From Acidobacteriota bacterium (GTDB lineage: Bacteria > Acidobacteriota > UBA6911 > RPQK01 > JAJDTT01): a DNA stretch of 64,000 nt. The stretch lies in assembly GCA_028874215.1 (NCBI GenBank), contig JAPPLF010000096.1:11022-75021 (forward strand). Direction: 5' to 3'. Shown piece by piece: positions 3,329-21,172 of this stretch. The translations under genes were made by a program, and so were the position numbers. The notes beneath the pieces are model-generated. The model was not told where the DNA came from, searched no databases, and worked only from the letters and a program-made list of their open reading frames with translations. Numbering within the stretch: position 1 is the first letter of the stretch; the number at the start of each line of letters is the position of its first letter.

Positions 3329-3517
3329 ATGACGGACAACGAGAACGTAATACGGGTGAAGACGCTGGAGGAGTTCGACCGGGAGCTCGCCCGGGACGGG
3401 GACGAGACCCTGGAAGTCCCGGCCGAGTTGGCCCGTGAATACGGCATCTTCCCGGAAGACGTGGGCAGCGAGGACCAGATCCGGCAAGCCCAGCGGGAGG
3501 CTGAAACCGATGAGTAA
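3329..3517 (+). CDS. Small acidic hypothetical protein
   Basis: A 62-residue, strongly acidic protein (many Glu/Asp) with no membrane segment. A good ribosome site (GGAGGTGA) stands 4 bases before the ATG. Its last codons overlap the start of the ArdC-like gene by 8 bases, so the two are likely co-translated. I recognise no family. The acidity and position next to an antirestriction gene would suit a DNA-mimic or accessory protein, but that is speculation. Confidence 0.6.
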   Translation: MTDNENVIRVKTLEEFDRELARDGDETLEVPAELAREYGIFPEDVGSEDQIRQAQREAETDE

Positions 3518-4592
3518 GAAGAATACGACGGCCGAGGAATATCACCGGCAATTCGCCGACCGGATCATCGATCAGATCAAGCGGGGCGTCGCGCCCTGGC
3601 AAAAGCCCTGGAAACCGGGCGAGCGCGTCCTGCCGCACAACCTCCACACCGACCGTCCCTACGCCGGCGGCAACAGCCTGCACCTGGCCGTGGTGGCCGA
3701 GGAACGCGGCTACTCGGACACGCGCTGGGGGACCTACCGGCAGATCCAGCTTCAAGGGGGCCACGTGCGAAAGGGCGAACGCGGCACCCGGATCCTCTCC
3801 TACCAAGACCACCGGCGCGTCGCCGTCAAGGACCCGCAAGGGCGTCCCGTCACCGACGAGAACAACCGGCAAGTCTACCGGTACGAACGCCTGCCCAAGC
3901 CCTGGATCAAGCGCTACACGGTGTTCAACGCCGAGCAGGCCAACCGGCTTCCGGCGCCCCCCGAACCGACCGAGAAGGCGATCTGGGACGCCCATCTTGA
4001 GGCCGACAAGGTCCTGAAGGAATGCGGCGTGGACATCCGCCACGTCGAGGGGGACCGGGCCTACTACCGGCTCAAGACCGACGACATCGTCCTGCCGAAG
4101 TGGAAGCAGTTTCCGTCGGCCAACCAGTACTACCAGACGGCGCTGCACGAGGTGGGACACGCCACCGGACACCCGGAGCGCATGAACCGCGAGTCGTTGA
4201 TCAAAGGCGTCGAGGCCGGGTTCGGCTCCCAGATCTATGCCCGGGAGGAGCTGCGCGCGGAGATCAGCGCCATGATGACGGGCGAGCGGATCGGGGTCGG
4301 TCACGATCCCAGCCGGGGAGCGGCCTACGTGGAAAGCTGGGTCGAGGTCCTGGAGAAGGACCCCCGGGAGATCCGCCGGGCGGCGGCCGACGCGCAGAAG
4401 ATCTCCGACTACATCCTGGAGCACACCCGGCAGCGTGAAGCGGAAAGAGAGCCGGAAGCCGCGAAGGACGTCGCTTCCCCGACCCCGACGGACCCTGCTC
4501 GACAACAAGACCAGGACCAGTCCTTCACGGTCGCCGTCCGGCAGGCGAGGACCGTTCCCGTTCCGTCCCGCAACATCAGCCCGAGCCGGTAA
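3510..4592 (+). CDS. ArdC-like antirestriction protein
   Basis: A 360-residue protein with the two-domain plan of ArdC. The N-terminal ssDNA-binding domain (about residues 10-130) includes a PWQKPW segment, a GGN motif and a TYRQI segment followed by KGERGTRI. The C-terminal domain is zinc-metallopeptidase-like with HEVGH at 213-217 followed by ATGHPERMNR. ArdC-type proteins protect incoming single-stranded plasmid DNA during conjugation, so the place in a transfer operon is as expected. ATG 3510 overlaps the preceding ORF by 8 bp; upstream in-frame ATGs do not give family sequence. The tail after about residue 310 is low-complexity and polar. Confidence 0.85.
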   Translation: MSKKNTTAEEYHRQFADRIIDQIKRGVAPWQKPWKPGERVLPHNLHTDRPYAGGNSLHLAVVAEERGYSDTRWGTYRQIQLQGGHVRKGERGTRILSYQDHRRVAVKDPQGRPVTDENNRQVYRYERLPKPWIKRYTVFNAEQANRLPAPPEPTEKAIWDAHLEADKVLKECGVDIRHVEGDRAYYRLKTDDIVLPKWKQFPSANQYYQTALHEVGHATGHPERMNRESLIKGVEAGFGSQIYAREELRAEISAMMTGERIGVGHDPSRGAAYVESWVEVLEKDPREIRRAAADAQKISDYILEHTRQREAEREPEAAKDVASPTPTDPARQQDQDQSFTVAVRQARTVPVPSRNISPSR

Positions 4593-6198: not shown

Positions 6199-7059
6199 CT
6201 ACGACACCTGTGTCTTATCGGAGGCCGAATGCGAAATCATCCAGATTGGAACCGACGATCCGTCGCGACGCCAGCATCGGCGCTCCGACAGCTCCTGCAA
6301 CACGTAACGCATGAGTGCTCGGCGTGTCCGAACAACGAGCACACCGCGATCAGCTATGCCGTATTCGTGCTCATAGGAAAGTCTTTCCTCCTTGGACAGT
6401 TCGGGCGACAGGAAGAGTCGTCGCTTTTCGATCATCTTCCAACTCTCGTCACCTTTGATTCCCACGTAGCGTGTCCCCACGGCCCGCCAGGCTTCGATCG
6501 CACGGGCAGGAACTAAATCGACATACCGGTCGTCCACCCGGTTGCCTAACCTGTCTCGGCCATCTTCTCGGAAACCCCGAAAATGATGCCTTCCCCGAGC
6601 ACGAACGATGGCTGACGGGGAGAAGGTGAACTCCTGGACCCCTGTTTTCGAGGCATAGATCAAATGGGCAGCTTCGCGATCAAGACAGGCAGCTAGAAGT
6701 TCACGACTCGCCCGTGTCGAAACTGTCGCCGAGATGGACAGATCGTGCGCGCCTCCGTTAGGTGAAGTACGGGAAAACGGGTTTCCGGGGAATTGATCGG
6801 CAAGCATGAGCATGGCGTAGGTGACTGCGGGATCCGTTACAACTGGACCCGGATCAAATTGTTCCGCTGGCACGAGACGTCGCTCAGCGGTTGGACGGTA
6901 ACGAGGCAAGATCCCCAAAGTGCGCCAGTCGGAAATCAGGCTGCGAGCCGTGCGCTCCGAGACGCCTAGGAATGCCGCGACCTCGGCCGCTCGCAGATGA
7001 CCACGCCAGTACAGCATGGTTTCGGCATAGCGGCGTGCAATATCGCGAACGACTGCCAC
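6199..7059 (-). CDS. WYL-domain transcriptional regulator of the cas locus
   Basis: A 286-residue protein with an N-terminal helix-turn-helix (about residues 15-50: LRAAEVAAFLGVSERTARSLISDW) and a C-terminal WYL-like region with RPVP-like and RYVGIKGDESWKMIEKRRLFLSPE segments. WYL regulators next to CRISPR-Cas genes are known repressors or ligand-sensing switches of cas expression. The gene is divergent from cas6. I place the start at GTG 7059; a TTG at 7095 would extend it by 12 residues but would place codons inside the palindrome at 7082-7094. The divergent layout suggests autoregulation together with control of cas6-cas2. Confidence 0.75.
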   Translation of the reverse strand: MAVVRDIARRYAETMLYWRGHLRAAEVAAFLGVSERTARSLISDWRTLGILPRYRPTAERRLVPAEQFDPGPVVTDPAVTYAMLMLADQFPGNPFSRTSPNGGAHDLSISATVSTRASRELLAACLDREAAHLIYASKTGVQEFTFSPSAIVRARGRHHFRGFREDGRDRLGNRVDDRYVDLVPARAIEAWRAVGTRYVGIKGDESWKMIEKRRLFLSPELSKEERLSYEHEYGIADRGVLVVRTRRALMRYVLQELSERRCWRRDGSSVPIWMISHSASDKTQVS

Positions 7060-7081
7060 AAATCCAATATTGCATCTACCC

Positions 7082-7123
7082 TGCAAATTTTGCAAGTTGA
7101 ACCTCGTTAGTGATTATTACTAA
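7082..7123. promoter_or_regulatory. Two palindromes over the cas promoter, candidate WYL operator
   Basis: The AT-rich gap between the regulator and cas6 holds TGCAAATTTTGCA (7082-7094, a perfect 6-1-6 palindrome) and TTAGTGATTATTACTAA (7107-7123, 5-bp arms). A candidate promoter overlaps both: TTGCAA at 7090-7095, an 18-bp spacer, and TTATTA at 7114-7119, pointing to cas6. The first palindrome covers the -35 and the second covers the -10. This is the arrangement expected of a repressor site. Binding itself is inference. Confidence 0.5.
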
Positions 7124-7158
7124 ACTGCGATTGTATTGGCACTTCGGGAGGAAGGTGA

Positions 7159-7887
7159 ATGCGGGTGAGACTTACGGCACCGCGAGGCGTACGTTTGAGG
7201 TTTCGCTATCTCGACAGTCTACATGGGGCACTCGTGAACGCTTGGACAGCGTGCGGGGCGCGCGGGAAGCACGTCGTCGGTCCCAATGCCGGTAACTGGT
7301 CGTTCGGAGCGGTTGGCCTGGCCACATCCCGGGGATTTCTTATGAAGTCTCTGGCGATCGGAGCGGTGGGGAAAAGGCTGGAGCCAATACTAGCTCGTCT
7401 ACTTCCCGAGACCGTTCGCAAGACATCGGCCAATGGCGATGTAGTGGACCTCTCGACCTGGGATGTTGCCGTCGAAGAACTTCCAGTCGTCGCTCGGCCC
7501 GGGGAAACGGCTATGCTCCCCGCGATCATGCTTTCGCCATTGGCTATTTCCGTGCGTGGCAAGAAAGGACGTTGGCACGATAACCTGATGAACGCCGGAA
7601 AAGACGTGGAAGAGGCCGCGAACTTTCGCCTTTCGCATCTGACCGGCCGACAGGTGCGCTTAAGGATCGAGCCTGACAGACTCTACCTGCGGGCTAATCC
7701 GAATCACTCTACCTTAGTCCGAACGCGCGCCGTCAGCGGTCATAAGCCCGCATTCGTGATCGGAATGATGTGCCCGCTGTTCATCAGCGGTCCAATAGAA
7801 GATCTGCGCGTGGCCTGGGCGCTGGGAATCGGTGAGAAGAACCGCTACGGATTCGGTTGCATCGGATACGCAGGAAAACGCGCATGA
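7159..7887 (+). CDS. cas6: Cas6 CRISPR RNA endoribonuclease
   Basis: A 242-residue RAMP-fold protein expected to cut the repeat hairpin of the precursor CRISPR RNA. The C-terminal glycine-rich loop (GIGEKNRYGFGCIGYA, about residues 223-238) is the hallmark of Cas6. The N-terminal part has the usual SLHGALVNAW helix. AGGAAGGTG lies 4 bases before the ATG, a strong start. The stop overlaps the cas10d start (ATGA). It is the first gene of a single cas6-to-cas2 transcription unit. Confidence 0.85.
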   Translation: MRVRLTAPRGVRLRFRYLDSLHGALVNAWTACGARGKHVVGPNAGNWSFGAVGLATSRGFLMKSLAIGAVGKRLEPILARLLPETVRKTSANGDVVDLSTWDVAVEELPVVARPGETAMLPAIMLSPLAISVRGKKGRWHDNLMNAGKDVEEAANFRLSHLTGRQVRLRIEPDRLYLRANPNHSTLVRTRAVSGHKPAFVIGMMCPLFISGPIEDLRVAWALGIGEKNRYGFGCIGYAGKRA

Positions 7888-10856
7888 GCATTCCGTCCCA
7901 GGATTTCGCCCATCTGACAGCCGTCGAAGTGTACGGGGCGTTCCTGGAAGAGTGCGTTATCGCGCGTGTTTCCAACGACCGCATTGGCCCTCCGCCAAAA
8001 ACCTCCGCCAAGAGAATCGATGGCCGGCCCGTTCGCTTGGTGGCAACCAGTGGCAAGGGCGGTTGGTCGAGTGATCCGGTTCTTGAAGAGCGGTGGGCGG
8101 AAAACGACAACATCAGCCTGTTGGATCACCTGCTGTCAGTGGCTCGTGGTGCACTCATGTTCTGGCTGTCAGATGCCCCTCGTCCCTGGTCGAGCGAATC
8201 GGACCTCTCTCAGATTGAGCAATTGGCGCACGCCGTCGTGTGCATCGCCTTTCTCCACGACATCGACAAGGATTTGGAGTTGCCCCGGGGAGGAGAGATC
8301 ACGGTGGCTGACGTGGCCGATCGGATGGACCGCTATGGAATCGACGACTTCCTGCTGAAACGAGAAATCCGCGTCTCACCGGCCGCGATGCTCAACTACA
8401 TCGAGGAGGTCGAGGGAACCCAGGCAGCCGGAAGCGCTGCCGCTCCAGACTATGACCTAAGGATCGCCGCAACATGTGCCTACATCGAATTGGCAGACAA
8501 GCTGGAGGGGAAATTCACCAAGCGGGGACCCGACGGTGGTGTCGACGGAGTGGTCGGGTCCTTACGCGACGCCAATCAGTGGCCCGTACTCAAAGACCGT
8601 AGCCTGAAGAAGTGGGAGAAGGTCGAATTCCATGACCATTTGCATGTTTTCCTTCTGGACCGCTTTCAGCGTGCGTTGTCCGCCAAGTGCAGGGAGGTCA
8701 CCGGCCGACTTCCCTTGATCGAGATCGTGCACGATGGAAGGTTCTTGTGCATCATTCCCCAGGAGCAGGCAGACCGGATCAAAACGCAAGCTCTCGACAC
8801 ATTTCTAGAGGATCTACCGTACGGTCTTGGCTTTTCGGTGAACAACCGCTTGGCATGCGAGTTCGTTGGTGGCGCGGCTAATTGGGATGCCTGTCGTGCT
8901 GTGATGCAGCGTACGTACGACTGGCGACGGTTCGTAAACCTGTTCGCGCTTCCTAGACAATTTGCGCAGGCCCACAGCCAGGAGATCGACGATCTTTTTC
9001 ACGTCGCGGGCATGAACACGTCGTGGAGCCCGCTCAACGAGGGCCCGAGCGCCACGGTCAAGCCGGCTCTCGAACATCCCGGAGGAGATTTTCACCGCCT
9101 GGACATGGAGCCCGCTCATGCGCTCGCCTTCTTAACGATCACGCTAAACCATGCCGACTTCAGGGGCAAAAAAGCAGCGCCCGACGCCGAGACGCGGGAA
9201 CAAGAACTCCGAGATCTCCTTGCAGTCAAAGGGAGGGAACTACCGACGGTCGTGGCGAAAGCACCTGCGAAAGACGGGCGGGCGCGCCGTATCTTGCTGG
9301 CATTGAGCACAATCGCGGAAGTGTGGCGGCTGGCAGAAGACGATCCAATCGAAGCTCAAAGACTCCTGGATTGTGTCGTGGACCGTTCAGGTCTCATCGG
9401 ACTCTGGCTGGAGGGCGCGGACGGCCGTATTGGACTCGCCGAACAGATCGAAGACGTGTCCAGCGATATTCTCGACGCGCTGTGCTCACGTTTTTCTGCG
9501 TATTTGACCGGGATTGCCGCGCAACCGTTCGACGTAGGTGCACGAAACAAGCATTGTATCCTTTGTAACGAGCCAGTCGAAACATCACGCAACGTCAAGA
9601 CTGCCTCGCGGGCGCATGGCATCAAGGCTTCGGCGTTCTCGGGTCGCGACGGCCGCAACGACCATCTGGCGTCACCGTCGGGGGATACCCACCTGTGTCC
9701 AGTCTGCTTGGCCGAGTTGCAGTTGCGCCACAAGGCACAAGAGGAATTCAAGGGTAGCGGGGATCTGCCACCACTCATTTCGTCGCCCATGAGTACCGGA
9801 CTCTTCGCGGGCCTTGCGTTCCAACAGGAAGACGCCGACGTGTCAATGGGGTTGAATGACCTCAATCGCCTAGACGTCAGGAAGGGCGTCGTCTATGAGG
9901 GACTGGATTGCCAGAGAAAGCGGATTCGATTGGCGCGTCTGGAGACACTGCCGAACAAGGATGCCGAGCTAGTGGCGCAACTTCGCATGACACTCAATGC
10001 TATTCAGCGGGTCGGTCGTCCTGTCCATATCTTCCGTGGGTCGCCGCACCGGCACCCGTCAATCTTTTATTCGGATGCACTGCCCTCATGGTTGGAGCGA
10101 ATGCTCGGGGGCGACAGCATACGAATAGAACAGCTTCCCGGTGCGCTTTCCAGCCTGAAATTGTTCGAATACCTGGCAAACAAGCCCGGTCTGGGAATCG
10201 AGTGGGCCAGACAACTTGCTGATCCTGATCCGAACGTCAGACTCGGGGCACTCTGTGTCGCTTGGGGGTTGGCGGTAGACCGGAGGGGCGTCGGTGATCA
10301 GGATCATGCTTGGTTCGTTATCGAAACAGAAACACGCGAGCGAGCCCTGGCGCTCATCAGAAACATCGGAGGTGGACCAGTGAACCTGAAAGGCAGTGAG
10401 GATCCATTGATTCGGCTGGCCTGGCTCGCGAGTCGTATCCAGAGGCGCCGCAGTGCGCGGGACTCGACCAACAAGCAGCTTCTCTGTTGGAAGACGGCAC
10501 TTGAGTTCTATCCCGGCGCAGATCGGTCGGTGAGTCAGGACAGAACGGCTCTGATCCTGGGATTGGCGGGAACGCTTGAGGAGGAGCTCGCGAGGAAGAA
10601 AGATGCGGCTGCAAAGAAGCATCGCAACGATCTTCCGCTCAGTAACGCTTGCATCGAGTTCGCAACTCACTTCGCAGACGAGGTGTGGACCAAAGTCTTT
10701 CGGTCGAAAGAACCGACATCGCAGGACCAGCGCCGGGCAGCACAAATCTACCGATTCGCCCTGCTGGAGACCTACCGAGAGCGCGGTATTCATGAGACAG
10801 GGGATGACAACCCGGATCGCGACAAGTCCAGGGTGTTGAACGGACCCACAGTATGA
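7884..10856 (+). CDS. cas10d: Cas10d (Csc3), large subunit with HD nuclease domain
   Basis: A 990-residue protein with the plan of the type I-D large subunit. An N-terminal HD domain has H82 in LLDHLLSV and the HD pair H125-D126 in FLHDIDK. A zinc-finger-like pair of CxxC motifs lies at about 558/561 and 604/607 (HCILCNE and LCPVCLA). The C-terminal ~160 residues are helical. In type I-D the target-cutting HD activity sits here and not in the Cas3 helicase, which agrees with the helicase downstream lacking an HD domain. I see no GGDD-type cyclase motif, so second-messenger synthesis is not expected. ATG 7884 overlaps the cas6 stop; an earlier in-frame ATG (7857) would lie inside cas6. Confidence 0.8.
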   Translation: MSIPSQDFAHLTAVEVYGAFLEECVIARVSNDRIGPPPKTSAKRIDGRPVRLVATSGKGGWSSDPVLEERWAENDNISLLDHLLSVARGALMFWLSDAPRPWSSESDLSQIEQLAHAVVCIAFLHDIDKDLELPRGGEITVADVADRMDRYGIDDFLLKREIRVSPAAMLNYIEEVEGTQAAGSAAAPDYDLRIAATCAYIELADKLEGKFTKRGPDGGVDGVVGSLRDANQWPVLKDRSLKKWEKVEFHDHLHVFLLDRFQRALSAKCREVTGRLPLIEIVHDGRFLCIIPQEQADRIKTQALDTFLEDLPYGLGFSVNNRLACEFVGGAANWDACRAVMQRTYDWRRFVNLFALPRQFAQAHSQEIDDLFHVAGMNTSWSPLNEGPSATVKPALEHPGGDFHRLDMEPAHALAFLTITLNHADFRGKKAAPDAETREQELRDLLAVKGRELPTVVAKAPAKDGRARRILLALSTIAEVWRLAEDDPIEAQRLLDCVVDRSGLIGLWLEGADGRIGLAEQIEDVSSDILDALCSRFSAYLTGIAAQPFDVGARNKHCILCNEPVETSRNVKTASRAHGIKASAFSGRDGRNDHLASPSGDTHLCPVCLAELQLRHKAQEEFKGSGDLPPLISSPMSTGLFAGLAFQQEDADVSMGLNDLNRLDVRKGVVYEGLDCQRKRIRLARLETLPNKDAELVAQLRMTLNAIQRVGRPVHIFRGSPHRHPSIFYSDALPSWLERMLGGDSIRIEQLPGALSSLKLFEYLANKPGLGIEWARQLADPDPNVRLGALCVAWGLAVDRRGVGDQDHAWFVIETETRERALALIRNIGGGPVNLKGSEDPLIRLAWLASRIQRRRSARDSTNKQLLCWKTALEFYPGADRSVSQDRTALILGLAGTLEEELARKKDAAAKKHRNDLPLSNACIEFATHFADEVWTKVFRSKEPTSQDQRRAAQIYRFALLETYRERGIHETGDDNPDRDKSRVLNGPTV
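10380..10856 (+). CDS. cas11d: Cas11d small subunit by internal start inside cas10d
   Basis: Type I-D systems are known to make their small subunit by internal translation initiation near the 3' end of cas10d. Here an in-frame GTG at 10380 is preceded by GGAGGTGG at 10368-10375, with the core GGAGG ending 7 bases before the codon, which is near-ideal. The product would be 158 residues, mostly helical (for example LAGTLEEELARKKDAAAK and FATHFADEVWTKVF), the right size for Cas11. It shares frame and stop with cas10d. The site is seen directly; use of the site is inferred. Confidence 0.6.
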   Translation: MNLKGSEDPLIRLAWLASRIQRRRSARDSTNKQLLCWKTALEFYPGADRSVSQDRTALILGLAGTLEEELARKKDAAAKKHRNDLPLSNACIEFATHFADEVWTKVFRSKEPTSQDQRRAAQIYRFALLETYRERGIHETGDDNPDRDKSRVLNGPTV

Positions 10857-10869
10857 CAAGGAGAGGATA

Positions 10870-11868
10870 ATGATCGACAAGTTCAAGCCGTACCTCAACG
10901 ACAGAGATCTCTTGGAGGAGGTGGTCGCAGCGAACGGCAGGAATACCTATCTGATGCCGTCGCGCCGCAATGCGGGGCACGTGGCCCTTGCTCTGGTCCG
11001 CGAGATCATAGCTCCGACCGTGTTCCGAAACGCGGAAGAGGAAATTACGGACATCGAAGATCGTGACGGCGTCCGCCGGGTGCGGGCAACCCCAAGCAAG
11101 TTCAAATTCGGCGAGCGCGGCCGGGGATTGCTCGTCCTGCGCGCATGGAACGTGGGCGGCCGACTCCCACAGAACCGCACTGCTGTCGGCATCCGGATGC
11201 CGATTCGGAATGCGTTCGACTTGAACACCTTGGTTTTCGGCGACTCCGCCATGTTGGGTACACGTGTACTACCGGTGAAGGCAACGGTGCAGTACTCGGA
11301 CGCGCTCAGCACGGTTGCGTACCGCGACGCCGTGGGGGAAAGCTTCCACCATCGCGGAGACGAGACAGGAACCCTCTGGGACGCGGAGAAGCATAGAAAT
11401 ACGGAAAACTTGTTCTCTAGGCACTTCGTGCGGCCCGGCACCTTTCTGATCCAGATTCTATCCTGCAACGGTCGGCAACTTCCTCCGATCGGGCTCGATC
11501 ACCTGCTGCTGAGCATCGGTTTAGCCGGATCCTACGGTGGTCAGACCTCGGTCACCGGCATCAACGTGCGTACCCATATCGCCGGAATATTCGCTGCGCG
11601 TCTAGAAGCACCAATTTCTTCGCCTTACGAGTTGCTCCGGCATTTGCCGCCGAAGTCCAACTCGGTGGAAACCCTAACAGCTGCTGTTGAGAACGTGATG
11701 TCGCAACACTACCGAGTCCACTCCGCTTCGGATGAAGCGTGCGCTTACCAACGACAGTTGATTGACGCGTTCGAGCGCGACGAGCCTAACCTACGGTCCC
11801 GCTACGAAGCTGCAGCCCCGAGGATCGCCGATCTATTCGAGCAGTACTTTGACCCGAAAAAGGCGTAA
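10870..11868 (+). CDS. csc2: Csc2 (Cas7-type backbone subunit, type I-D)
   Basis: A 332-residue protein at the position of csc2. It would form the helical backbone that coats the CRISPR RNA spacer. The LVFGDSAMLG segment (about 118-127) matches the place of the Csc2 GD-rich signature, and the C-terminal half (LLLSIGLAGSYGGQTSVTG, then VRTHIAGIF) matches the closing part of the family. The sequence is divergent from the cyanobacterial Csc2 I know, so the call leans on order and size as well. AAGGAGAGG stands before ATG 10870, 13 bp after cas10d. Confidence 0.7.
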   Translation: MIDKFKPYLNDRDLLEEVVAANGRNTYLMPSRRNAGHVALALVREIIAPTVFRNAEEEITDIEDRDGVRRVRATPSKFKFGERGRGLLVLRAWNVGGRLPQNRTAVGIRMPIRNAFDLNTLVFGDSAMLGTRVLPVKATVQYSDALSTVAYRDAVGESFHHRGDETGTLWDAEKHRNTENLFSRHFVRPGTFLIQILSCNGRQLPPIGLDHLLLSIGLAGSYGGQTSVTGINVRTHIAGIFAARLEAPISSPYELLRHLPPKSNSVETLTAAVENVMSQHYRVHSASDEACAYQRQLIDAFERDEPNLRSRYEAAAPRIADLFEQYFDPKKA

Positions 11869-11871
11869 ACA

Positions 11872-12531
11872 ATGCCTGGAGCTATATTCCCGTTTCGACT
11901 GACCGCACTGTCTCCCTGGGCATGGCACGGGCTCGCCGTACCCTCCGGAACTTCGACTCTCAATGACATAGTGACCGACACGGCTATGGCGTTCGGCACG
12001 GCCACCGCACTTGGCATGGCTTCCCGATCGCCGTGTTTGCCCTCAGCACCCGACTACCGTGGGCACTTGGCCGCCTTGCCGTTCAAAACGACACTGTTTC
12101 TGGGGTATGGGAACCGGCTCAATCGGCCGCTGGCCCGCCGCCTCAACCTTGACGCCGAATGCGGCATGCCAAAGAGCGTCGACACGGCGCGCAAGAGTGG
12201 CAATATCAAGGACTACTACCACATCCAGGAAGTCGCGGCGGGTTCAGTCTTTCACGGCTGTTTTCTGCATGAGGATCCTCTCAGGATCGTGCAAGAAGCA
12301 TACGGGAAACGGGCCGACCGGCTCGTCATCCGTCTCGGGCTCGGCCGAAACGGTGCCGGCCTTCTCGAACGCTGTCCCAAAGGCCATGATATCTGCCTCA
12401 ACCTGCATACGGCGAGGCTATTCGATTTGGATGTCGACCTTGGCGCCGGGCCGTACCGTCTGCATAACATCCAACCCAGCCAACCCCTGGAACCGGAGAT
12501 AGCATTGCAGGTTACGGGTGGCTGGTCATAG
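11872..12531 (+). CDS. csc1: Csc1 (Cas5-type subunit, type I-D)
   Basis: A 219-residue RAMP-like protein placed 3 bp after csc2. It would cap the 5' handle of the CRISPR RNA next to Cas10d. Recognition is mainly by place, length and a glycine-containing basic loop (RLVIRLGLGRNGAG, about 143-156). The sequence is weakly similar to typical Csc1 by eye. A divergent Cas5 of another class I subtype is the alternative. Confidence 0.6.
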   Translation: MPGAIFPFRLTALSPWAWHGLAVPSGTSTLNDIVTDTAMAFGTATALGMASRSPCLPSAPDYRGHLAALPFKTTLFLGYGNRLNRPLARRLNLDAECGMPKSVDTARKSGNIKDYYHIQEVAAGSVFHGCFLHEDPLRIVQEAYGKRADRLVIRLGLGRNGAGLLERCPKGHDICLNLHTARLFDLDVDLGAGPYRLHNIQPSQPLEPEIALQVTGGWS

Positions 12532-12540
12532 ATCAAGTCG

Positions 12541-14589
12541 ATGATCATCAGATCACACTCTGTACCGATACTGCCCAGCGGGCTGTCGCCGATGCAGGAG
12601 CGCCTCCTGCGGTCCGAGAAGCATGTTCGACTTGTGTCGGCGCCGACCGGCTCTGGAAAGACCTACGCATTTTTGCGAGCCGTCCTCGACCTGGAGACCC
12701 ATGTATTGTTCATCGTTCCGACCAAACGACTGCTTCAGAACTTGATCAAGGACGCCCGCGACCAAGCTCGGAAGCACCTTGCCGAGCGCGGCTTGGATAC
12801 CCTTCAGATTGACTCCTGGCTCGACGATCGAATCATCGAATGGTCTGGCAACCAAACGAGAGACGGGCGTGAGAGGCTCGCTACAACGCGGGTGCGCCAG
12901 ATCCTGGACGGCGCGCATTTGGGTGGACGGGTCATCTTTGCCATACCCGAGGTGGTGGTCAAGATGATCTCCGGAATCCGGGTAACTGGGGCGGGAGCGA
13001 TCAATCCGTTTCTCTACCTGCGCCGCTTCGACCACATCGTCTTCGACGAGTTCCATACAATCGATGATCGATCATTTGGCTTGGCCTGCCTGCTATCGCT
13101 GCTGGCTGTCTCGGAACGTCAGGGAAAGGTGTCGCTCCTGTCGGCCACGCCTATCGACGTCACAAAGATATTCGAACAAGTCGGTGTAGGACCGCATGAT
13201 TGCGAGACGATCAGCGAGAGGCTCGCCGACGGACATCCGCCCGGGCATCGACCCATCCATGGCGACGTTTCCATCACCTTGCGCGAGTGTTCCCTGCTCG
13301 ATTCGGTCCCACCGCACCTCGACGCCGTCTGCGCGTCAATCGCCGACGGTCACACCGTCATCGTGATCTATGACTCGCTGGCACGACTCAAGCTTGAGGA
13401 ACCTGAATTGCGGAGGACACTGAATGCCGCCGGCATTCCGGACTCCAAGATCCTCGCGATCAACTCGATCGACGACTCGGAACGGAAACCGGGCGAACCG
13501 CGCCGTGGACGAAAATACGAAGATCCACACGATTACGACGTGCTCGTGTGTACTTCTTCAGTTGAAGTTGGCGTCACTTTCCGATGCACGCTCATGTTCA
13601 CGGAACCCGGACACGGGCTCGCCAGTTTCGTGCAGCGTATTGGGCGTGTCTCGCGCGGCTCCGAAGGCGGAAGAGTCGTCGTTTCGTTGTATCGACAGCG
13701 ACGCAATCGCAAAACGTGGACTCGGCGGGTTGCGGATGTCCTCGAGCATCACGACGATCTCGATGTCCGCGTATTCATCGATGAGATCCTCCGCGACGTG
13801 CGGAGTCGTCTTGAGCCCACGCGGAAGGAAGTTGAAGCCGACTTCTCGAAGGTAGGCGCGTCGGTACCATTCTACCGCCGTGCTTCCTGGCGAGGAGCCT
13901 TCTGGGCAGCCCTGTTCGTAGCTGCAATCCGGCGGACGAAGATGACCGTACAGAAGGAAGCGAGAAATCGACTTTGGAAAATCGCTCCCGAGATCGTGAA
14001 GTTTGTCGAGGCAAAGATCGGGGAAATACTGTCGGTCGGTGTAGTGAACCACAACCTGAGGCGGCAGTCCCAGCCGCACAAAAGATGGGTGAAAGCGCTT
14101 CTCGCAAGCGCTCTCACCTACCGTGAAATCGGTGCTACGATCATAGTCGTGGACCCGAACGGCACGCGCCACACGGTTACAGAATCTTTCTTGCGAAGAG
14201 CCACGGACATCCTTAACCGTCACATCGCGACCGAAACGGATGGCGAACGGATCATCCACCTCATGTCGCGACCTCTCGATGAGGAAATCAGAGCGTTCCC
14301 GGGGAAACTGCATGCACAGCGGTTGACTCTGTATGTCCCTTCGCCGATCGATGAAGGTAGCTTTTCAATATCGATCCGTGAACTGGAAAAGGGTAGCGAA
14401 CAACTCAACTTGCGTTTAGTCGGCGAGTGGCGTCACCGGTTCGGTCGATTCATCCCAGGACCGGGAGAAAGTCCCCGAGATCCTCGAAAAAAGGTGATGG
14501 CAGCGGCCACCGCACTGGTCGAGAAACTCGGCAGGCCACCCCTGGATGAAGACTACGAGGATTCTTCACAAAGCGCGCTTTTTGCGTGA
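12541..14589 (+). CDS. cas3: Cas3' DNA helicase without HD domain
   Basis: A 682-residue superfamily 2 helicase. Walker A APTGSGKT is at 34-41, motif II is DEFH at 169-172 (Phe in place of the more usual Ala), motif III is SATP at 201-204, and motif VI QRIGRVSRG is near 364-372. There is no HD nuclease domain at either end, as expected for type I-D, where cutting is done by Cas10d. It would unwind target DNA recruited by the Csc complex. It follows csc1 by 9 bp and its 3' end overlaps cas4 by 44 bp. Confidence 0.85.
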   Translation: MIIRSHSVPILPSGLSPMQERLLRSEKHVRLVSAPTGSGKTYAFLRAVLDLETHVLFIVPTKRLLQNLIKDARDQARKHLAERGLDTLQIDSWLDDRIIEWSGNQTRDGRERLATTRVRQILDGAHLGGRVIFAIPEVVVKMISGIRVTGAGAINPFLYLRRFDHIVFDEFHTIDDRSFGLACLLSLLAVSERQGKVSLLSATPIDVTKIFEQVGVGPHDCETISERLADGHPPGHRPIHGDVSITLRECSLLDSVPPHLDAVCASIADGHTVIVIYDSLARLKLEEPELRRTLNAAGIPDSKILAINSIDDSERKPGEPRRGRKYEDPHDYDVLVCTSSVEVGVTFRCTLMFTEPGHGLASFVQRIGRVSRGSEGGRVVVSLYRQRRNRKTWTRRVADVLEHHDDLDVRVFIDEILRDVRSRLEPTRKEVEADFSKVGASVPFYRRASWRGAFWAALFVAAIRRTKMTVQKEARNRLWKIAPEIVKFVEAKIGEILSVGVVNHNLRRQSQPHKRWVKALLASALTYREIGATIIVVDPNGTRHTVTESFLRRATDILNRHIATETDGERIIHLMSRPLDEEIRAFPGKLHAQRLTLYVPSPIDEGSFSISIRELEKGSEQLNLRLVGEWRHRFGRFIPGPGESPRDPRKKVMAAATALVEKLGRPPLDEDYEDSSQSALFA

Positions 14590-15088
14590 ATTGGCTGAAC
14601 AGCACGGGCTCCACGGGCTCTATTTCCAACACGTCGCGTTGTGTCGGCGGCGCGCGTGGCTTCATCTGATGGGCGCGACCCACGCCGTCTATCACGACCG
14701 AGTCCGCAGAGGACTTGCCCTTCACCACACGGAAAAGCGACCCAGCAAGGTGCCAAAGGGTCTCGGCATCGTGCCCGATGCAATTGATTTCGAGCGACGG
14801 ATCGTGATCGAGAGAAAAGGCGGTGCCGGGGCGCGTCATGCAGTCTCGCGACAAGCTCTTTTCTATGCGGCATTCATGACGGGCGCCACCGGAGACCTGT
14901 GGCAAGCTGAAGTCCATATTTACGGGTCTCAGAAAAAGACGACCTACGAGTTGACCGAGAATGTAATTGGCCAGCTCATTCGTGACGCGCAGGATGCCCC
15001 TGCCCTGATGGATGGCCCTCCGCCCGCGGCACACGCCATCCCTCTGTGTGAAGCGTGTAGCTGCAATCTGATTTGCTGGGATGAGTAG
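14546..15088 (+). CDS. cas4: Cas4 adaptation nuclease
   Basis: A 180-residue RecB-like PD-(D/E)xK nuclease with an iron-sulfur cluster, which trims prespacers and helps choose PAM sites. The catalytic residues D78, E89 and K91 are visible in VPDAIDFERRIVIERKGG. The four cluster cysteines fit C33 (ALCRRRAW) and the C-terminal group C168, C171, C173 and C177. The start lies inside cas3 (44-bp overlap) and the stop overlaps the cas1 start by 8 bp, so translation of the adaptation genes is coupled to the helicase. Confidence 0.88.
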   Translation: MKTTRILHKARFLRELAEQHGLHGLYFQHVALCRRRAWLHLMGATHAVYHDRVRRGLALHHTEKRPSKVPKGLGIVPDAIDFERRIVIERKGGAGARHAVSRQALFYAAFMTGATGDLWQAEVHIYGSQKKTTYELTENVIGQLIRDAQDAPALMDGPPPAAHAIPLCEACSCNLICWDE

Positions 15089-16061
15089 CAATATGGATGT
15101 CGTCATAATCCCACGCGATGCGCGCCTGAACCGACACGAAAACGCACTCGTCGTGACCTCTGACTCCAGACGCAAGACCATTCCGCTGAACGGCATCAAG
15201 CACATCGTGTGCATGGGCAACGGTTCCATTACTATTCCCTTGCTCAAGGATATGGGGCGTCGGGGAATCCGATTTACGGTTCTCGACGCAGGCGGGCGCT
15301 TTCTCGGGGCATTCGAGCCGGAGGAGGAAACACCGTCCGGGAGGGTACGCGTGGGCCAAGCTCAATTGTTCCTGGACGAGATTGCCCGTTTGACGATTGC
15401 TCGGGCAATCGTGGGATCGCAAATAAAATCGATGCGCGGATTGTTGCAGCGTTACCGCCGCAACGGCACAACAGGTCTCGACCTGTCATTGGAAGGTTTG
15501 CAGAGCGCAATCGGTATTTCCGATGGAGCGACTAGCATTGAGATTCTGATGGGTGCTGAAGGGCATGCACGAGCGTTCCTGCACGACGCATTTGGGCGAA
15601 TCTCTCCAGACGCGAAGCTGGCACGCCGCGTCCGGCGACCGCCCCCCGATCCGGTCAATTGCCTCATGTCTTTCTTCAATATGTTGCTCTATTCCGCGTG
15701 CGCGAACGAACTTGCAAAGACGCATCTTGACCGAAGCGTCTCGTTTCTCCATTCACCAGGGACAGGGCGTCGTTCGCTGTCGATCGACATGGCGGAAACT
15801 TTCAGGCCAATTCTCTCGGATGCACTTCTGCTGTCGATTTTTCGCCGCCGTCAAATTGACGAATCCTGGTTGAAACGCGCTCCTGGAGTGTGCCTACTCA
15901 GTGAGAAGGGAAGGATCAAAGCGACCGAACGTTTCTGGTCACGCATCGAGGAACGACATGGAAATCTGACCCTTCGCCAATTGATTCACCGGCAATGTCT
16001 TTCGCTAGAGCGCGAAGCGCTAGGCATCGGGCAGTTCAGACCATTCATGTGGAGAGGGTGA
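15081..16061 (+). CDS. cas1: Cas1 integrase
   Basis: A 326-residue Cas1 that would insert new spacers with Cas2. The family segments are visible: the beta-rich N-terminus (NALVVTSDSRRKTIPLNGIKHIV), a catalytic Glu region (GAEGHARAFLHDAF), and the His and Asp of the active site in SFLHSPGTGRRSLSIDMAE. The ATG at 15081 overlaps cas4; a second ATG 12 bp later is also possible. The stop is 4 bp before cas2. Confidence 0.92.
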   Translation: MSSNMDVVIIPRDARLNRHENALVVTSDSRRKTIPLNGIKHIVCMGNGSITIPLLKDMGRRGIRFTVLDAGGRFLGAFEPEEETPSGRVRVGQAQLFLDEIARLTIARAIVGSQIKSMRGLLQRYRRNGTTGLDLSLEGLQSAIGISDGATSIEILMGAEGHARAFLHDAFGRISPDAKLARRVRRPPPDPVNCLMSFFNMLLYSACANELAKTHLDRSVSFLHSPGTGRRSLSIDMAETFRPILSDALLLSIFRRRQIDESWLKRAPGVCLLSEKGRIKATERFWSRIEERHGNLTLRQLIHRQCLSLEREALGIGQFRPFMWRG

Positions 16062-16065
16062 TCCT

Positions 16066-16365
16066 GTGTTCGTGATAATCACCTACGATGTCCCCGCCAA
16101 AAGAACGGGGATTTATAGAAAGCTCCTCAGAGAATTTCTGACACACGAACAGGCATCCGTGTTTATGGGTGACCTGCCTGAGTCTGAGATTCTCAGAATG
16201 GTGGCCAAGATCTCTGAGAAGATAGGCCCTGATGACCGTGTGCTGAAGCTCGTTTGTCGAAATCGGCACAACGTCGAAGTGTGCCGACTCAGCAAAGAAG
16301 CCCTGGGAGGTCAGATGCGCGAGGAGAGGGACAACTGGCATGGTAATAACTGGGCACTTGTCTAA
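16066..16365 (+). CDS. cas2: Cas2
   Basis: A 99-residue Cas2 with the standard start (FVIITYDVPAKRTGIYRKLLREF) where the Asp after Tyr is the conserved metal residue. It would form the central dimer of the Cas1-Cas2 integration complex. It uses GTG as start codon, 4 bp after cas1. It is the last gene before the CRISPR array. Confidence 0.92.
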   Translation: MFVIITYDVPAKRTGIYRKLLREFLTHEQASVFMGDLPESEILRMVAKISEKIGPDDRVLKLVCRNRHNVEVCRLSKEALGGQMREERDNWHGNNWALV

Positions 16366-16497: not shown

Positions 16498-17424
16498 GTT
16501 CCTGATCCCCATGAGGGGTAATGAGCATTGATCGTGTACCCCTTTCGGAGCGACTACTAGAAGTTCCTGATCCCCATGAGGGGTAATGAGAACCGGTCCA
16601 GTTCGAGCAGCCGGTCCAGCTCTTCCTGTTCCTGATCCCCATGAGGGGTAATGAGCTGTAGTCCTGGTACGAGACCGGCGTCTGCCCGGTGTTCCTGATC
16701 CCCATGAGGGGTAATGAAACCTTGCCGACCATCGCCCTGTACGCGATCAACAAGGTTCCTGATCCCCATGAGGGGTAATGAGTTCTTTTTGCGGGTTCTT
16801 CTTACAACGGGCAGTTGGGTTCCTGATCCCCATGAGGGGTAATGAGTTCCTCGCCTCCGCTCTGCTCTGGCAGATGCACAAGGGTTCCTGATCCCCATGA
16901 GGGGTAATGAGGTTTGTACTGTCTGCTCCTTCATGCGTTCCTCCTCGGAGTTCCTGATCCCCATGAGGGGTAATGAGTTCGGCGCCCTGGACGGCGCTAT
17001 AGCGTTGCTTATTCGGGTTCCTGATCCCCATGAGGGGTAATGAGATGTGGGCAAGAGTAATCAGAATCGCCCCCAACATAGTTCCTGATCCCCATGAGGG
17101 GTAATGAGTTTATTCTTACAAGACGCCATGTTCTCAAAATCTGACCGTTCCTGATCCCCATGAGGGGTAATGAGCTCCGTGTGGTCGCCCTTCAGCCGTG
17201 CGTTGATCGCGTTCCTGATCCCCATGAGGGGTAATGAGGTGACCGCCGCCTGGATGAAGCTGGACACCGGTTGAGGTTCCTGATCCCCATGAGGGGTAAT
17301 GAGTTCTGCCTGGTCGCCATGATCGTCGCCGAGAACCGCGTTCCTGATCCCCATGAGGGGTAATGAGGTGACTGCCGCGAGGCGGCGACGAGCAGGTTCC
17401 GTGGTTCCTGATCCCCATGAGGGG
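16498..17424. CRISPR. CRISPR array, 15 repeats and 14 spacers
   Basis: A 28-nt repeat starting GTTCCTGA, with a CCCC-ATGA-GGGG hairpin core and ending TAATGAG. Copies start at 16498, 16563, 16628, 16691, 16755, 16819, 16884, 16950, 17017, 17081, 17147, 17211, 17276, 17340 and 17404. Fourteen copies are full length; the one at 16691 ends in A, not G, and the last keeps only the first 21 bases. Spacers are 35-39 nt and all differ. The repeat has only a short stem, as usual for Cas6-processed arrays. Direction is uncertain: see the separate observation. Confidence 0.97.
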
Positions 17425-17456
17425 CAGTCAGTCTTCTCAGACTGACTGCCCCTCAT
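17417..17456 (+). terminator. Perfect 17-bp hairpin at the array end
   Basis: Bases 17417-17433 and 17440-17456 form an exact inverted repeat with a 6-nt loop (TTCTCA). The left arm begins inside the truncated last repeat (ATGAGGGG) and continues into new sequence (CAGTCAGTC). No good U-tract follows (TCTATCC), so it is either an imperfect intrinsic terminator for the array, or a barrier between the array and the convergent higBA genes. Confidence 0.6.
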
Positions 17457-17487: not shown

Positions 17488-17817
17488 TCACCTCGGACCG
17501 TCTACCATCGGCGGCCGAGCGATGTCTACCGATTGTGGCTCGTAGCGCTTGACATCGATCTCATCCTCTCGTGCTTGCGCCTGGGCGACATCATATGCCG
17601 CCTGTAGCCGTACCCAGGTCTCCGTCGTTGAGCCAAAAGCCTTCGCAAGTCGGACCGCCATGTCGGCTGAAATACGGGCATGGCAATTCACCAGATTCGA
17701 AAGTGCCTGGCGACTGACGCCGAGGATCCTTGCGCCTTCGGTGACGTTGAGGCCAAGCGACTCTAGACAGGAAACACGCACGACCTTGCCAGGATGCGGC
17801 GGGTTCTTCATAGGCAT
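17488..17817 (-). CDS. higA: HigA-type antitoxin
   Basis: A 109-residue XRE-family antitoxin. NPPHPGKVVR at the start and the helix-turn-helix NVTEGARILGVSRQALSNLVN (about residues 24-44), followed by RISADMAVRLAKAFGSTTETWVRLQAAYD, are the standard VapI/HigA pattern. It should bind and neutralise the RelE-like toxin encoded 17 bp upstream and repress their shared promoter. The toxin-first order is the normal one for higBA. It stabilises the mobile element against loss (inference). Confidence 0.9.
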   Translation of the reverse strand: MPMKNPPHPGKVVRVSCLESLGLNVTEGARILGVSRQALSNLVNCHARISADMAVRLAKAFGSTTETWVRLQAAYDVAQAQAREDEIDVKRYEPQSVDIARPPMVDGPR

Positions 17818-17834
17818 ATCGACTTCCCCTTCAT

Positions 17835-18113
17835 TTAATGATAGTCGATCAATTCGACATCGTAGACATCCTCGCCTTCAAAACGGAAAATGATTCGCCA
17901 GTTGGCTTTCACGGTCACGGACCAATAGCCTCTCAGCTTGCCTTTGAGGGCATGCAGCCGGTATTGCCGAAGTCGCATCGCTTCAGGAGACCTGGCGACA
18001 TCAAGCTGGGCGAGCATGACTTCCACCCGATCATGCAGATCGGGACGGATGAGGCTGCGGTTTCCGCGTTCGTAGAAACGCTTGAGCCCACGATGTCGGA
18101 AGCCTCGTATCAT
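17835..18113 (-). CDS. higB: HigB-type mRNA interferase toxin
   Basis: A 92-residue RelE/ParE-superfamily toxin that is expected to cut mRNA on the ribosome. The start IRGFRHRGLKRFYERG and the ending WSVTVKANWRIIFRFEGEDVYDVELIDYH are typical of full-length HigB. It lies immediately upstream of the antitoxin on the same strand. Its ATG overlaps the stop of a 72-residue ORF (ATGA). Confidence 0.9.
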   Translation of the reverse strand: MIRGFRHRGLKRFYERGNRSLIRPDLHDRVEVMLAQLDVARSPEAMRLRQYRLHALKGKLRGYWSVTVKANWRIIFRFEGEDVYDVELIDYH

Positions 18114-18328
18114 TTAGAGAATGTAGAGTGTCTAGCGACACTTGTCCAATAGATGCTGGTGCCTCTTTCTGCGAACCATCTAATCATTTGATGTGCCGGG
18201 CTCTTTGTGAACTTTTTTGAGTTTCCGACCGTGATGTGGCCAAACGGCGGTGAGGTAACGATTGCTTCCGGATCGCCACTACAAAAAAGGCGGCGCACCT
18301 CATTGAGAGTTACGTGTTTATCAGTCAT
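18110..18328 (-). CDS. Possible small ORF coupled to higB
   Basis: A 72-residue ORF whose TGA overlaps the higB ATG. The product has no recognisable domain and its ATG lacks a clear ribosome site. The DNA is less GC-rich than its neighbours, so an open frame is less trivial here. It may be a genuine leader gene or only the transcribed 5' region of higBA. The remaining bases up to 18443 show no gene. Confidence 0.3.
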   Translation of the reverse strand: MTDKHVTLNEVRRLFCSGDPEAIVTSPPFGHITVGNSKKFTKSPAHQMIRWFAERGTSIYWTSVARHSTFSK

Positions 18329-18443
18329 CTAACGAGTTGCCCAACCATCCGTGGCACAATTATCCGATGGGGCTGCTCCATGACACTGCCGCCAGGAATT
18401 TGGTAGGCTCCTCCTAACCCAAAATAGCCGGAACCGAAAACAG

Positions 18444-19106
18444 TCACAGTTCCCTGGCCATCCACTTGACTTCGCCGATCACCTCGGCCTCGCCCCATGG
18501 CTCAGGCTCCCAAGCCGGGTGATCGCTGACCAGTAGCCAGTTGCCTGAATCGTCCTGCCCGGCTCGCTTGACCACCAAGCCATCGCTCTTGCGAACCACG
18601 AAGATGTGCCCGTTCAGATGTCGTTTTCGGCTGTGGTCGACAAGGATCACGCAGTTTTCCGGCAATGTCGGCTCCATCGATTCACCCGTAACGCTGATGA
18701 CGCTGCATCGGTCGGCGACAAGACCTTGCCGAGACAACCATTCGTGCCGAAAGTAGGCGTAGGCCTTCACGTCTTCGTCCAGATCCAAAGCTCCACTGCC
18801 GGCTGCCGTCCAAAGCCGTCGCACCGGTACGGGCCGGGCGCCGGGGAGTTGGCGGACCTCCGCCGTAATTCCCTTGATCGAGAGTTCTGCCGACGGCGTG
18901 GGGTCATCCGTCAGGCCGACCAGATAGTCGAGGGAGACGCCCAGCTTACGCGCGGCCTTGACGGCCCCATCCAGTAGCAGCGCCGAGTGTCCCGATTCCA
19001 CATGAGAAATCATCGTCTGGTCGTAACGATCACCCAGCGCAACCGCGAGATCCACCTGCCGTAGACCGGCCCGATTGCGAGCCGCCGCCAATCGTTTTCC
19101 CAGCAT
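18444..19106 (-). CDS. Self-cleaving phage-type repressor (XRE HTH + S24 peptidase)
   Basis: A 220-residue CI/LexA-like repressor. An N-terminal XRE helix-turn-helix (about residues 5-60) is followed by a linker with an Ala-Gly bond at 102-103 (WTAAGSGALD), a catalytic Ser143 in TGESMEPTL and Lys180 in GLVVKR. The Ser-Lys spacing of 37 equals that of LexA. RecA-stimulated cleavage after DNA damage would lift repression of the integrase side. I take ATG 19106; a TTG at 19115 is possible. No strong ribosome site is seen, so the message may be leaderless. Confidence 0.88.
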   Translation of the reverse strand: MLGKRLAAARNRAGLRQVDLAVALGDRYDQTMISHVESGHSALLLDGAVKAARKLGVSLDYLVGLTDDPTPSAELSIKGITAEVRQLPGARPVPVRRLWTAAGSGALDLDEDVKAYAYFRHEWLSRQGLVADRCSVISVTGESMEPTLPENCVILVDHSRKRHLNGHIFVVRKSDGLVVKRAGQDDSGNWLLVSDHPAWEPEPWGEAEVIGEVKWMAREL

Positions 19107-19136
19107 GGCGGTCAATCTAACAGATTAAGATTTTTC

Positions 19137-19183
19137 TTGACGGATGAAACCAACTCATTTATTGTCTATCTATGAAACGAGTT
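19137..19183 (+). promoter_or_regulatory. Rightward promoter with inverted-repeat operator
   Basis: TTGACG (19137-19142), a 17-bp spacer and TATTGT (19160-19165) form a good sigma-70-like promoter pointing to the excisionase and integrase. AACTCATTT (19152-19160) and AAACGAGTT (19175-19183) are an inverted repeat matching at 8 of 9 positions and touching the -10. It faces away from the divergent S24 repressor, so it is the natural operator candidate for it. Confidence 0.55.
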
Positions 19184-19184
19184 C

Positions 19185-19358
19185 ATGTCGTTCTCCGGCT
19201 CCGGGCTCGTATCGCCGCTCTGAGCGTTCCTCAACGAATGCCGGGAACTCTCCTCCGACTTCGAGAAGCGGATCACGGAGGCTGTGGATCTTCTGGAGGA
19301 AGCCGAAAGGGCGGCACGGAAAGCCCGCGATCGGGTGCTGGAAGGACACGGGGCGTGA
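19185..19358 (+). pseudogene. Small helical ORF broken by an in-frame TGA
   Basis: From ATG 19185 the frame reads MSFSGSGLVSPL, then TGA at 19221-19223, then a convincing charged helix (FEKRITEAVDLLEEAERAARKARDR) to a stop at 19356-19358. The second half looks like real coding sequence without its own start codon. It may be a decayed gene or a sequencing error. No family is recognised. Confidence 0.25.
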
Positions 19359-19498
19359 TGGCTGCCTTGGACGAACGCTGTGCCTGCGGTGAATTCGCGA
19401 AACTAATGCCCCGTCCTGATCCGCTTCGTCGCAGCCCTAAACAAGCGTGGGTCGGTCCGCCACCGAAGGTACGCCTTGGGGATGAAGTATCTCGATGA
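19358..19498 (+). CDS. Possible 46-residue ORF, unknown
   Basis: An ATG overlapping the preceding stop (TGATG) opens a 46-residue frame rich in Pro and Arg with two Cys (CAC). It resembles no family I know. The overlap is the only support. Bases 19499-19620 show no gene. Confidence 0.2.
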   Translation: MAALDERCACGEFAKLMPRPDPLRRSPKQAWVGPPPKVRLGDEVSR

Positions 19499-19620
19499 GA
19501 CTCCGGAGCATTTACGAGGATCCAAAACGACCCATGCTCAGGTCGGCGACTTCCGGGATCTGAGTTCGCTTTGTGGCGGAGGCCAAGACCACGACGCTCT
19601 CGCGTGAAGGAACAGGCGTC

Positions 19621-19905
19621 ATGATGATCGGCAAGCCGGTCGCACTGATCCAGGTGCCCAACCGGAGGCTCTTCAGTGTTGCGGCCGCTGCCCAGTACCT
19701 GGGGAAGGCCATCGGCACGGTTCGCAAACTGGCCGATCTGAACATCATCAAAGCCAGAACCGAACTGGACACCGCCGGACGGCGCCGTCGCGTCTTCGCC
19801 CTGGAGGATTTGAACGCCTACGTCGATTCTCTGGAGCCGTGGTACGATTCGCCGCATGGCGAAGAGCCCGGATCCAGAAAGGAGGAGAGAGATGGGCATC
19901 TATAA
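19621..19905 (+). CDS. Excisionase-like helix-turn-helix protein
   Basis: A 94-residue protein with an MerR/excisionase-type winged helix (residues ~14-66: RLFSVAAAAQYLGKAIGTVRKLADLNIIKA...FALEDLNAYVDSL). Such small proteins set the direction of integrase action or act as regulators. AAGGAA lies about 9 bases before ATG 19621; a GTG at 19573 would add 16 residues. It overlaps the integrase start by 14 bp, which supports a xis-int unit. Confidence 0.7.
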   Translation: MMIGKPVALIQVPNRRLFSVAAAAQYLGKAIGTVRKLADLNIIKARTELDTAGRRRRVFALEDLNAYVDSLEPWYDSPHGEEPGSRKEERDGHL

Positions 19906-20980
19906 GGCAAAGGATCGCCGTGGACGACAACGATACGTCGTCAGCAAGTATTGGCCGAACGGATCCGGCCGGCTCAGAATGTATGCTCCCAACTACCGGA
20001 GTGCGAAAGCCCTTCACACTCGTGTGGAGGCCAGCATCCTGGACGGCACCTGGGAGCAGCTCAAGCAGGAACTGTCCGGCGGCAAGCGGGAAGTTTGGAC
20101 GGTGCGTCGCTTCTACGAGCGTTTTCGCGAGGAGTATTGCAAACCTCGTCTGCGCTCCTGGCGGCGCTACGAACTCTCGTTCAAGAGCCTCAACACCGCG
20201 CTTGGACACATTCCCCTGAAGGAGTTTCAACGCAAGGACCTCCACCGTTACGTCGCCAAGCGGAAGCGGCAGGTCAAGCCAGCCACGGTGAACCGTGACA
20301 TCGCCGCCATCAGCAAGCTGTTTTCCTACGCGCTGGAGTGCGGGGAAATCGACACGCATCCACTCGTTCGGTTCCCCAAGCTGAAGGAGCCCAAGAAGGT
20401 CTTCCGACCCTTGACGGTCGAACAGTTCCGGGACTTGGTTGACGCGGTGGACAACCCGTACATGCAAGCCATGATCGCGGTGATCGGCGAGACGGGGATT
20501 CGGAAAGGAGAAGCTCTATCGCTCACGTGGAGCCGGGTGGATTTGCGCCGTGGATTACTGTGGGTGGAACTCACCAAGGACAACGAGCCGAGGGAGATTC
20601 CGCTGTCGAAGTACGCCACCAGATACTTGGCCGGACTAGTACGCTACCTGCACACTCCTTACGTCTTTGTCAATGCCCGGACCGGAACAAGATGGGCGAA
20701 TCCGACCAAACCGCTACGGCGTGCTGCCGACCGGGTCGGACTGAAGTTGGGTTTTCACGATCTGAGGCGATTCCGCTGTAGCCAGTGGCTGATGCACGGG
20801 GTGGACGTGAGAACGGTGCAGCAATTGATGGGGCACTCGGACATCAGCACAACGATGCGCTACGCAGGATATGTCAGTTCGCATGCGCTTCAGAGCATTC
20901 GAGAAGCACAGGCCGCCGAAGATTCACAAAGACAACAGGCAACAAACAGGCAACGGTTAGGAAGTCGGACGGATGGCTAG
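19892..20980 (+). CDS. int: Tyrosine recombinase (integrase)
   Basis: A 362-residue phage-type integrase. An Arm-like N-terminus (KAKDRRGRQRYVVSKYW) and a SAM-like core-binding domain (~60-150) precede the catalytic domain with R204 (TGIRKGEAL), H289 and R292 (HDLRRF), H315 (GHSD) and nucleophile Y324 (MRYAGY). All five key residues are present, so it should be active. AGGAGGAGAG stands before ATG 19892. The stop lies 37 bp before a tRNA-Arg gene, the usual kind of target, and marks the right end of the mobile element. Confidence 0.93.
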   Translation: MGIYKAKDRRGRQRYVVSKYWPNGSGRLRMYAPNYRSAKALHTRVEASILDGTWEQLKQELSGGKREVWTVRRFYERFREEYCKPRLRSWRRYELSFKSLNTALGHIPLKEFQRKDLHRYVAKRKRQVKPATVNRDIAAISKLFSYALECGEIDTHPLVRFPKLKEPKKVFRPLTVEQFRDLVDAVDNPYMQAMIAVIGETGIRKGEALSLTWSRVDLRRGLLWVELTKDNEPREIPLSKYATRYLAGLVRYLHTPYVFVNARTGTRWANPTKPLRRAADRVGLKLGFHDLRRFRCSQWLMHGVDVRTVQQLMGHSDISTTMRYAGYVSSHALQSIREAQAAEDSQRQQATNRQRLGSRTDG

Positions 20981-21017
20981 AGGGAAAATTCGGGTAAACT
21001 ATTGAAAAGTAAAGGAT

Positions 21018-21091
21018 GCGCCCGTAGCTCAGCTGGACAGAGCAACGGACTTCTAATCCGTGGGTCGGGGGTTCGAATCCCTCCGGGCGCG
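21018..21091 (+). tRNA. tRNA-Arg (TCT)
   Basis: A full cloverleaf can be drawn: acceptor arm GCGCCCG/CGGGCGC, D stem GCTC/GAGC, anticodon stem ACGGA/TCCGT with loop CTTCTAA (anticodon TCT, reads AGA), T stem GGGGG/CCCTC with loop TTCGAAT, and discriminator G. CCA is not encoded. Its 5' end faces the integrase. It is the candidate attachment site. Confidence 0.95.
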
Positions 21092-21172
21092 CATTCCCCG
21101 CCGGGAGCACGGCGGAAAGAAAGCCGGCGTTCCCCTCAGGAGCTGCCCCACCGGCCCGGTAGAAAAAGGAAT

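Follow-up and report, generated by a model that had tools for sequence, protein, structure and literature searches.

The window analyzed here, a 64,000-nt stretch of contig JAPPLF010000096.1 from an Acidobacteriota bacterium, carries a cas operon and a CRISPR array (Table 1). A Cas10d large subunit occurs together with a separate Cas3' helicase, Csc2 (Cas7d) and Csc1 (Cas5d), the combination that marks type I-D membership, and judged by its gene content the locus is a complete type I-D CRISPR-Cas system. The N terminus of Cas10d also holds the HD (Cas3''-type) motif of type I-D, with H134-D135 and D137-K138 (numbered from TTG 7857) invariant in a four-sequence alignment. Cas10d was recognized by the PADLOC Cas10_Id models only, with no match in Pfam or NCBIfam.

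Table 1. Features of the type I-D locus, in window coordinates.
Feature	Position	Strand	Basis
Divergent regulator-like gene, winged-helix N terminus	6199..7095	-	upstream of cas6
cas6d	7159..7887	+	PADLOC Cas6d, E 1.5e-68; Pfam Cas_Cas6_C
cas10d, large subunit, 990 aa from ATG 7884	7884..10856	+	PADLOC Cas10_Id PDLC01534, E 7.9e-222
Internal Shine-Dalgarno sequence, GGAGGTGG	10368..10375	+	read directly; anti-SD pairing -10.8 kcal/mol
Internal start codon GTG of putative cas11d (Val833 of Cas10d)	10380..10382	+	ATG/GTG at or near the site in 36/36 homologues
Putative cas11d, 158-aa small subunit, in frame with the cas10d 3' end	10380..10856	+	AlphaFold2, Foldseek
cas7d / csc2	10870..11868	+	Pfam Csc2 PF18320, E 1.3e-10
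cas5d / csc1	11872..12531	+	PADLOC Cas5d, E 3.4e-55
cas3' helicase	12541..14589	+	PADLOC Cas3d, E 2.1e-115
cas4	14546..15088	+	Pfam Cas_Cas4
cas1	15081..16061	+	Pfam Cas_Cas1, E 1.9e-68
cas2	16066..16365	+	Pfam CRISPR_Cas2
CRISPR array, 15 copies of 28-nt repeat GTTCCTGATCCCCATGAGGGGTAATGAG, period 63-67, last copy degenerate	16498..17431	.	

The regulator-like gene had no WYL match in Pfam; related loci carry an annotated WYL-domain regulator in the same place. Right where the array ends (17404-17456), a long perfect inverted repeat, GGGGCAGTCAGTCT-TCTC-AGACTGACTGCCCC, has as one of its arms the degenerate last repeat copy, which reads GGGGCAGTCAG where GGGGTAATGAG would be expected. No stand-alone cas11 or other small-subunit gene is present among the assigned operon genes, and the related Thiothrix, Paracoccus and Roseomonas loci have no extra cas gene annotated; cas11d is not listed in the related plasmid annotations examined.

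Mechanical calling extends the large open reading frame from TTG 7857 to 10856 (999 aa), and its natural start, ATG 7884, shares bases with the stop codon of cas6. An earlier note, made from this sequence alone, had proposed that a small-subunit gene lies hidden inside cas10d, and its reading of the site proved exact to the base: GGAGGTGG is separated by ACCA (10376-10379) from an in-frame GTG, with 7 nt between GGAGG and GTG, and the frame from GTG 10380 to TGA 10854-10856 spans 158 codons and ends at the cas10d stop. Counted from ATG 7884, this GTG is cas10d codon 833. A GTG start is usually weaker than ATG.

We then considered how strong the site appears within the window. By anti-SD pairing energy, GTG 10380 ranks second of the 46 in-frame ATG, GTG and TTG codons inside cas10d, exceeded solely by GTG 8304 (-11.0 kcal/mol), and equally strong start-type triplets at usable spacing make up 0.8% of those on the window's plus strand (18/2300). 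A synonymous-codon test on the window sequence alone was not significant (p=0.29), and local RNA structure around the site showed nothing unusual (z=0.66), pointing neither way. By SD strength (-5.4 kcal/mol), the experimentally established internal start of Synechocystis cas10d itself comes no higher than 11th among 49 in-frame codons, so rank inside one gene is an unreliable test, whether for or against a site. The single-sequence argument of the earlier note is therefore insufficient alone, and the comparative test carries the conclusion. Pairing energies assume the standard anti-SD because the host's 16S 3' end was not found: no SSU rRNA was matched in the host genome, and the one GGNTCACCTCCTT match is at most a candidate for rRNA.

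The comparison covered 36 intact Cas10d homologues, counting the window's own, from 19 lineages below 60% identity. In all 36, ATG or GTG either occupies the position of the window's GTG or lies about two codons away, accompanied by an SD-like sequence, and the conserved start codon stands directly before the Cas11-like domain with variable residues adjoining it upstream. The earlier note had proposed conservation of the SD and start as a check, and homologues that lack the site but draw a small subunit from elsewhere as evidence against it; the pair was kept in 36/36, and no homologue of the latter kind was found. Pairing of the 17 nt upstream of the start with the anti-SD averaged -8.5 kcal/mol at the site versus -2.6 kcal/mol at 1783 other internal in-frame ATG, GTG and TTG codons of the same genes (Mann-Whitney p~1e-21), a comparison slightly biased toward the site by choosing the best-pairing nearby start in each sequence. 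With one representative for each of the 19 clusters the values were -8.3 versus -2.5 (p~4e-12); these p-values assume independent sequences, which holds only roughly even after clustering. Taken across the homologues, this evidence places the internal site far beyond chance. Within the window clade, GTG occupies the Val833 position in 5/5 sequences, where it accounts for only 25-36% of those genes' valine codons, and GGAGGTGA is present in 3/4 close homologues. One locus, L007, has an additional ATG two codons upstream of the site with its own AGAGGAG, by which the function would be kept there instead. Between lineages, the SD core shifts among all three codon phases and overlies different amino acids.

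A column control, free of the bias from choosing starts, scored every alignment column with a start-type codon in at least half of the 36 sequences. Column 145, the start of cas10d itself, had such codons in 33/36 sequences with a mean of -8.51, and column 1159, the internal site, had them in 33/36 with a mean of -8.28, whereas the next-best column reached 22 sequences and -5.0. Only these two columns combined start codons in at least 30 of the 36 sequences with a strong SD, and by this measure the internal site is indistinguishable from a real gene start. Sequences of the window clade have the start aligned two columns before the others, in column 1157. When upstream codons were redrawn synonymously according to each gene's own codon usage, the observed mean of -8.51 compared with an expected -5.30 (p<0.5 in 30/36 sequences, Fisher p=3e-4), and random control codons showed no excess. 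This result indicates that the SD is carried partly by the amino acids (Gly-Gly, Glu-rich) and partly by codon choice, and that synonymous codon choice across the family, as estimated by resampling, favours a Shine-Dalgarno sequence at this place.

The product was modelled with AlphaFold2 from 33 homologues, two plasmid-collection rows being left out. As the earlier note had predicted, the 158-aa protein is helical: the model is all-helical (mean pLDDT 89.8, pTM 0.81), with a first predicted helix at residues 9-20 and a low-confidence tail past about residue 138, and it supports a domain boundary that coincides with the internal start. The structural comparison of residues 833-990 with Cas11d, which the note had also proposed, returned Cas11d of the Synechocystis type I-D Cascade as the first-ranked Foldseek match in the PDB (7sba_J, probability 1.00, TM 0.64/0.69, E-value 2e-3), followed by the corresponding domain within Cas10d (7sbb_I and 7sba_I) and, weakly, by archaeal Cas10d and Csm small subunits. 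A profile search with the Cas11d alignment against PDB sequences gave no match, and hhalign against the single Synechocystis Cas11d sequence gave a probability of 2% (E 0.024). Homology to Synechocystis Cas11d thus rests on fold, position and operon context, because sequence similarity is below detection by profile comparison.

That Cas11d arises by internal translation has been established since 2020, in agreement with the earlier note. A review and a cryo-EM study describe, for type I-D, translation of Cas11d from a start codon within cas10d and in its frame; the internal start is apparently widely conserved across Cas10d lineages, and the minor filament consists of two Cas11d copies and the Cas10d C terminus (PMC10212523, PMC9123187). 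The window agrees with this picture on all points open to computation. The closest known counterpart, Cas11d of Synechocystis sp. PCC 6803 (PDB 7SBA/7SBB), corresponds to residues 830-975 of its Cas10d and begins at an ATG at pSYSA 11018 preceded by AAGGAA. It shares with the window product an in-frame internal start near the cas10d 3' end (residue 830 versus 833), the same fold by Foldseek, the same operon type and a similar size (146 versus 158 aa). The window differs in having a GTG rather than an ATG start, in its stronger SD (-10.8 versus -5.4 kcal/mol) and in gene order, with cas6 first and cas3' after csc1. Cas11b and Cas11c likewise arise from in-frame starts within the large-subunit genes cas8b (type I-B) and cas8c (type I-C) (PMC11899642, PMC10212523), but the large subunit there is Cas8, whereas in the window a Cas10-like protein fused to an HD domain takes that role. 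The next group of fold matches includes Csm2, the type III-A small subunit, which matched weakly (E 0.7-1). Csm2 is encoded by its own gene.

Considering these data together, it is very probable that the last sixth of cas10d is equipped with a ribosome-binding site and a start codon of its own. A putative in-frame start with a ribosome-binding site opens a frame that runs to the cas10d stop, and its product is predicted to adopt the helical Cas11 fold. We are highly confident that cas10d contains a second gene at its 3' end, from which a free 158-aa Cas11d would be made from GTG 10380 beside the 990-aa Cas10d. The hidden cas11d first proposed for this sequence thus finds support in conservation in 36/36 homologues, an SD equal to that of the cas10d start, synonymous bias, the modelled domain boundary and the fold. 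In the cell, ribosomes initiating at the cas10d start would produce the large subunit, and we infer that ribosomes would also initiate independently at GTG 10380 via GGAGGTGG to produce free Cas11d. As in Synechocystis, these copies would pack in a stack onto the Cas11-like domain at the C terminus of Cas10d and form with it the belly (minor filament) of the type I-D Cascade, which may support R-loop formation on double-stranded DNA targets. The mechanism is already known for type I-D; sequence comparison here bears it out in a divergent branch that general protein-family libraries miss.

It could instead be that GGAGGTGG merely encodes linker glycines and GTG an ordinary valine, the Cas11-like domain existing only as the C-terminal domain of Cas10d. 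The modest standing of the site within the window, second among 46 in-frame codons, with 0.8% of start-type triplets equally strong and a non-significant window-only synonymous test, is compatible with such a linker. Among homologues, however, the linker residues vary while the SD and start codon are kept, and the SD matches in strength that of cas10d's own start and carries a family-wide synonymous bias, so we regard a mere linker as very unlikely. A free small subunit might also begin at another in-frame codon, upstream or at TTG 10407 (149 aa), which has moderate SD pairing (-6.5 kcal/mol, spacing 4). TTG 10407 was rejected as the cas11d start: its column is not a start-codon column among homologues, and it would begin at residue 10, already inside the first predicted helix. 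Use of any such alternative start seems less probable still.

We give the least credence, close to none, to the small subunit arising without internal initiation on the cas10d message, whether cut from Cas10d by proteolysis or translated from a separate mRNA made at an internal promoter. A promoter would leave the same start codon in service, but positions 9800-10900 have no sigma-70-type match, and an internal promoter for cas11d was rejected on that ground. Proteolysis would make a conserved SD and start codon needless, and the Synechocystis homologue is reported as internally translated, which speaks against both routes.

Under internal initiation at GTG 10380, two starts of different strength would share one message, the internal SD of the window pairing at -10.8 kcal/mol and that of cas10d's own start at -4.3 kcal/mol. 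Their relative strength could conceivably set the ratio of Cas10d to Cas11d in Cascade, a tentative idea that we consider rather doubtful. Such tuning would be lineage-specific, since the family means of the two sites are about equal; the stronger internal SD of the window would suit an excess of the small subunit. Rebuilding such a system in other hosts, above all eukaryotes, would need the small subunit as a separate gene, and the column test, with a gene's own start as positive control, could be applied simply to other families to uncover hidden internal genes.

Finally, we examined the distribution of this Cas10d branch. It occurs on plasmids of Thiothrix, Paracoccus and Roseomonas, where Cas10d is annotated as a hypothetical protein, and at 37 loci in genome contigs, ranging over Gammaproteobacteria, Alphaproteobacteria, Desulfobacterota and MAGs labelled as several other phyla. 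Cas10d is 67-70% identical to that of the window over its full length at 4 of the 37 loci and about 30% identical at the others. The viral contigs and phage records scanned contained no Cas10d of this branch. Loci L005, L006, L007 and L012, from MAGs labelled Vicinamibacterales, Truepera, Entotheonella and Binatia (different phyla), keep the operon order of window positions 6199-16365 with about 64-83% protein identity. Conservation of the operon across MAG phyla, while a search of 100 relatives of the host found this Cas10d in none, suggests its horizontal transfer.

A quick search within the window found no second copy of the end of a tRNA-Arg (TCT) gene (21018-21092), which lies directly after a tyrosine-type phage integrase gene (19856-20980). 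The segments 3435-4592 and 17488-21092 also hold an S24-type repressor, a HigB-like toxin with an HTH partner and, across the cas locus, an ArdC-like antirestriction gene, and the cas locus may lie on an integrated mobile element.
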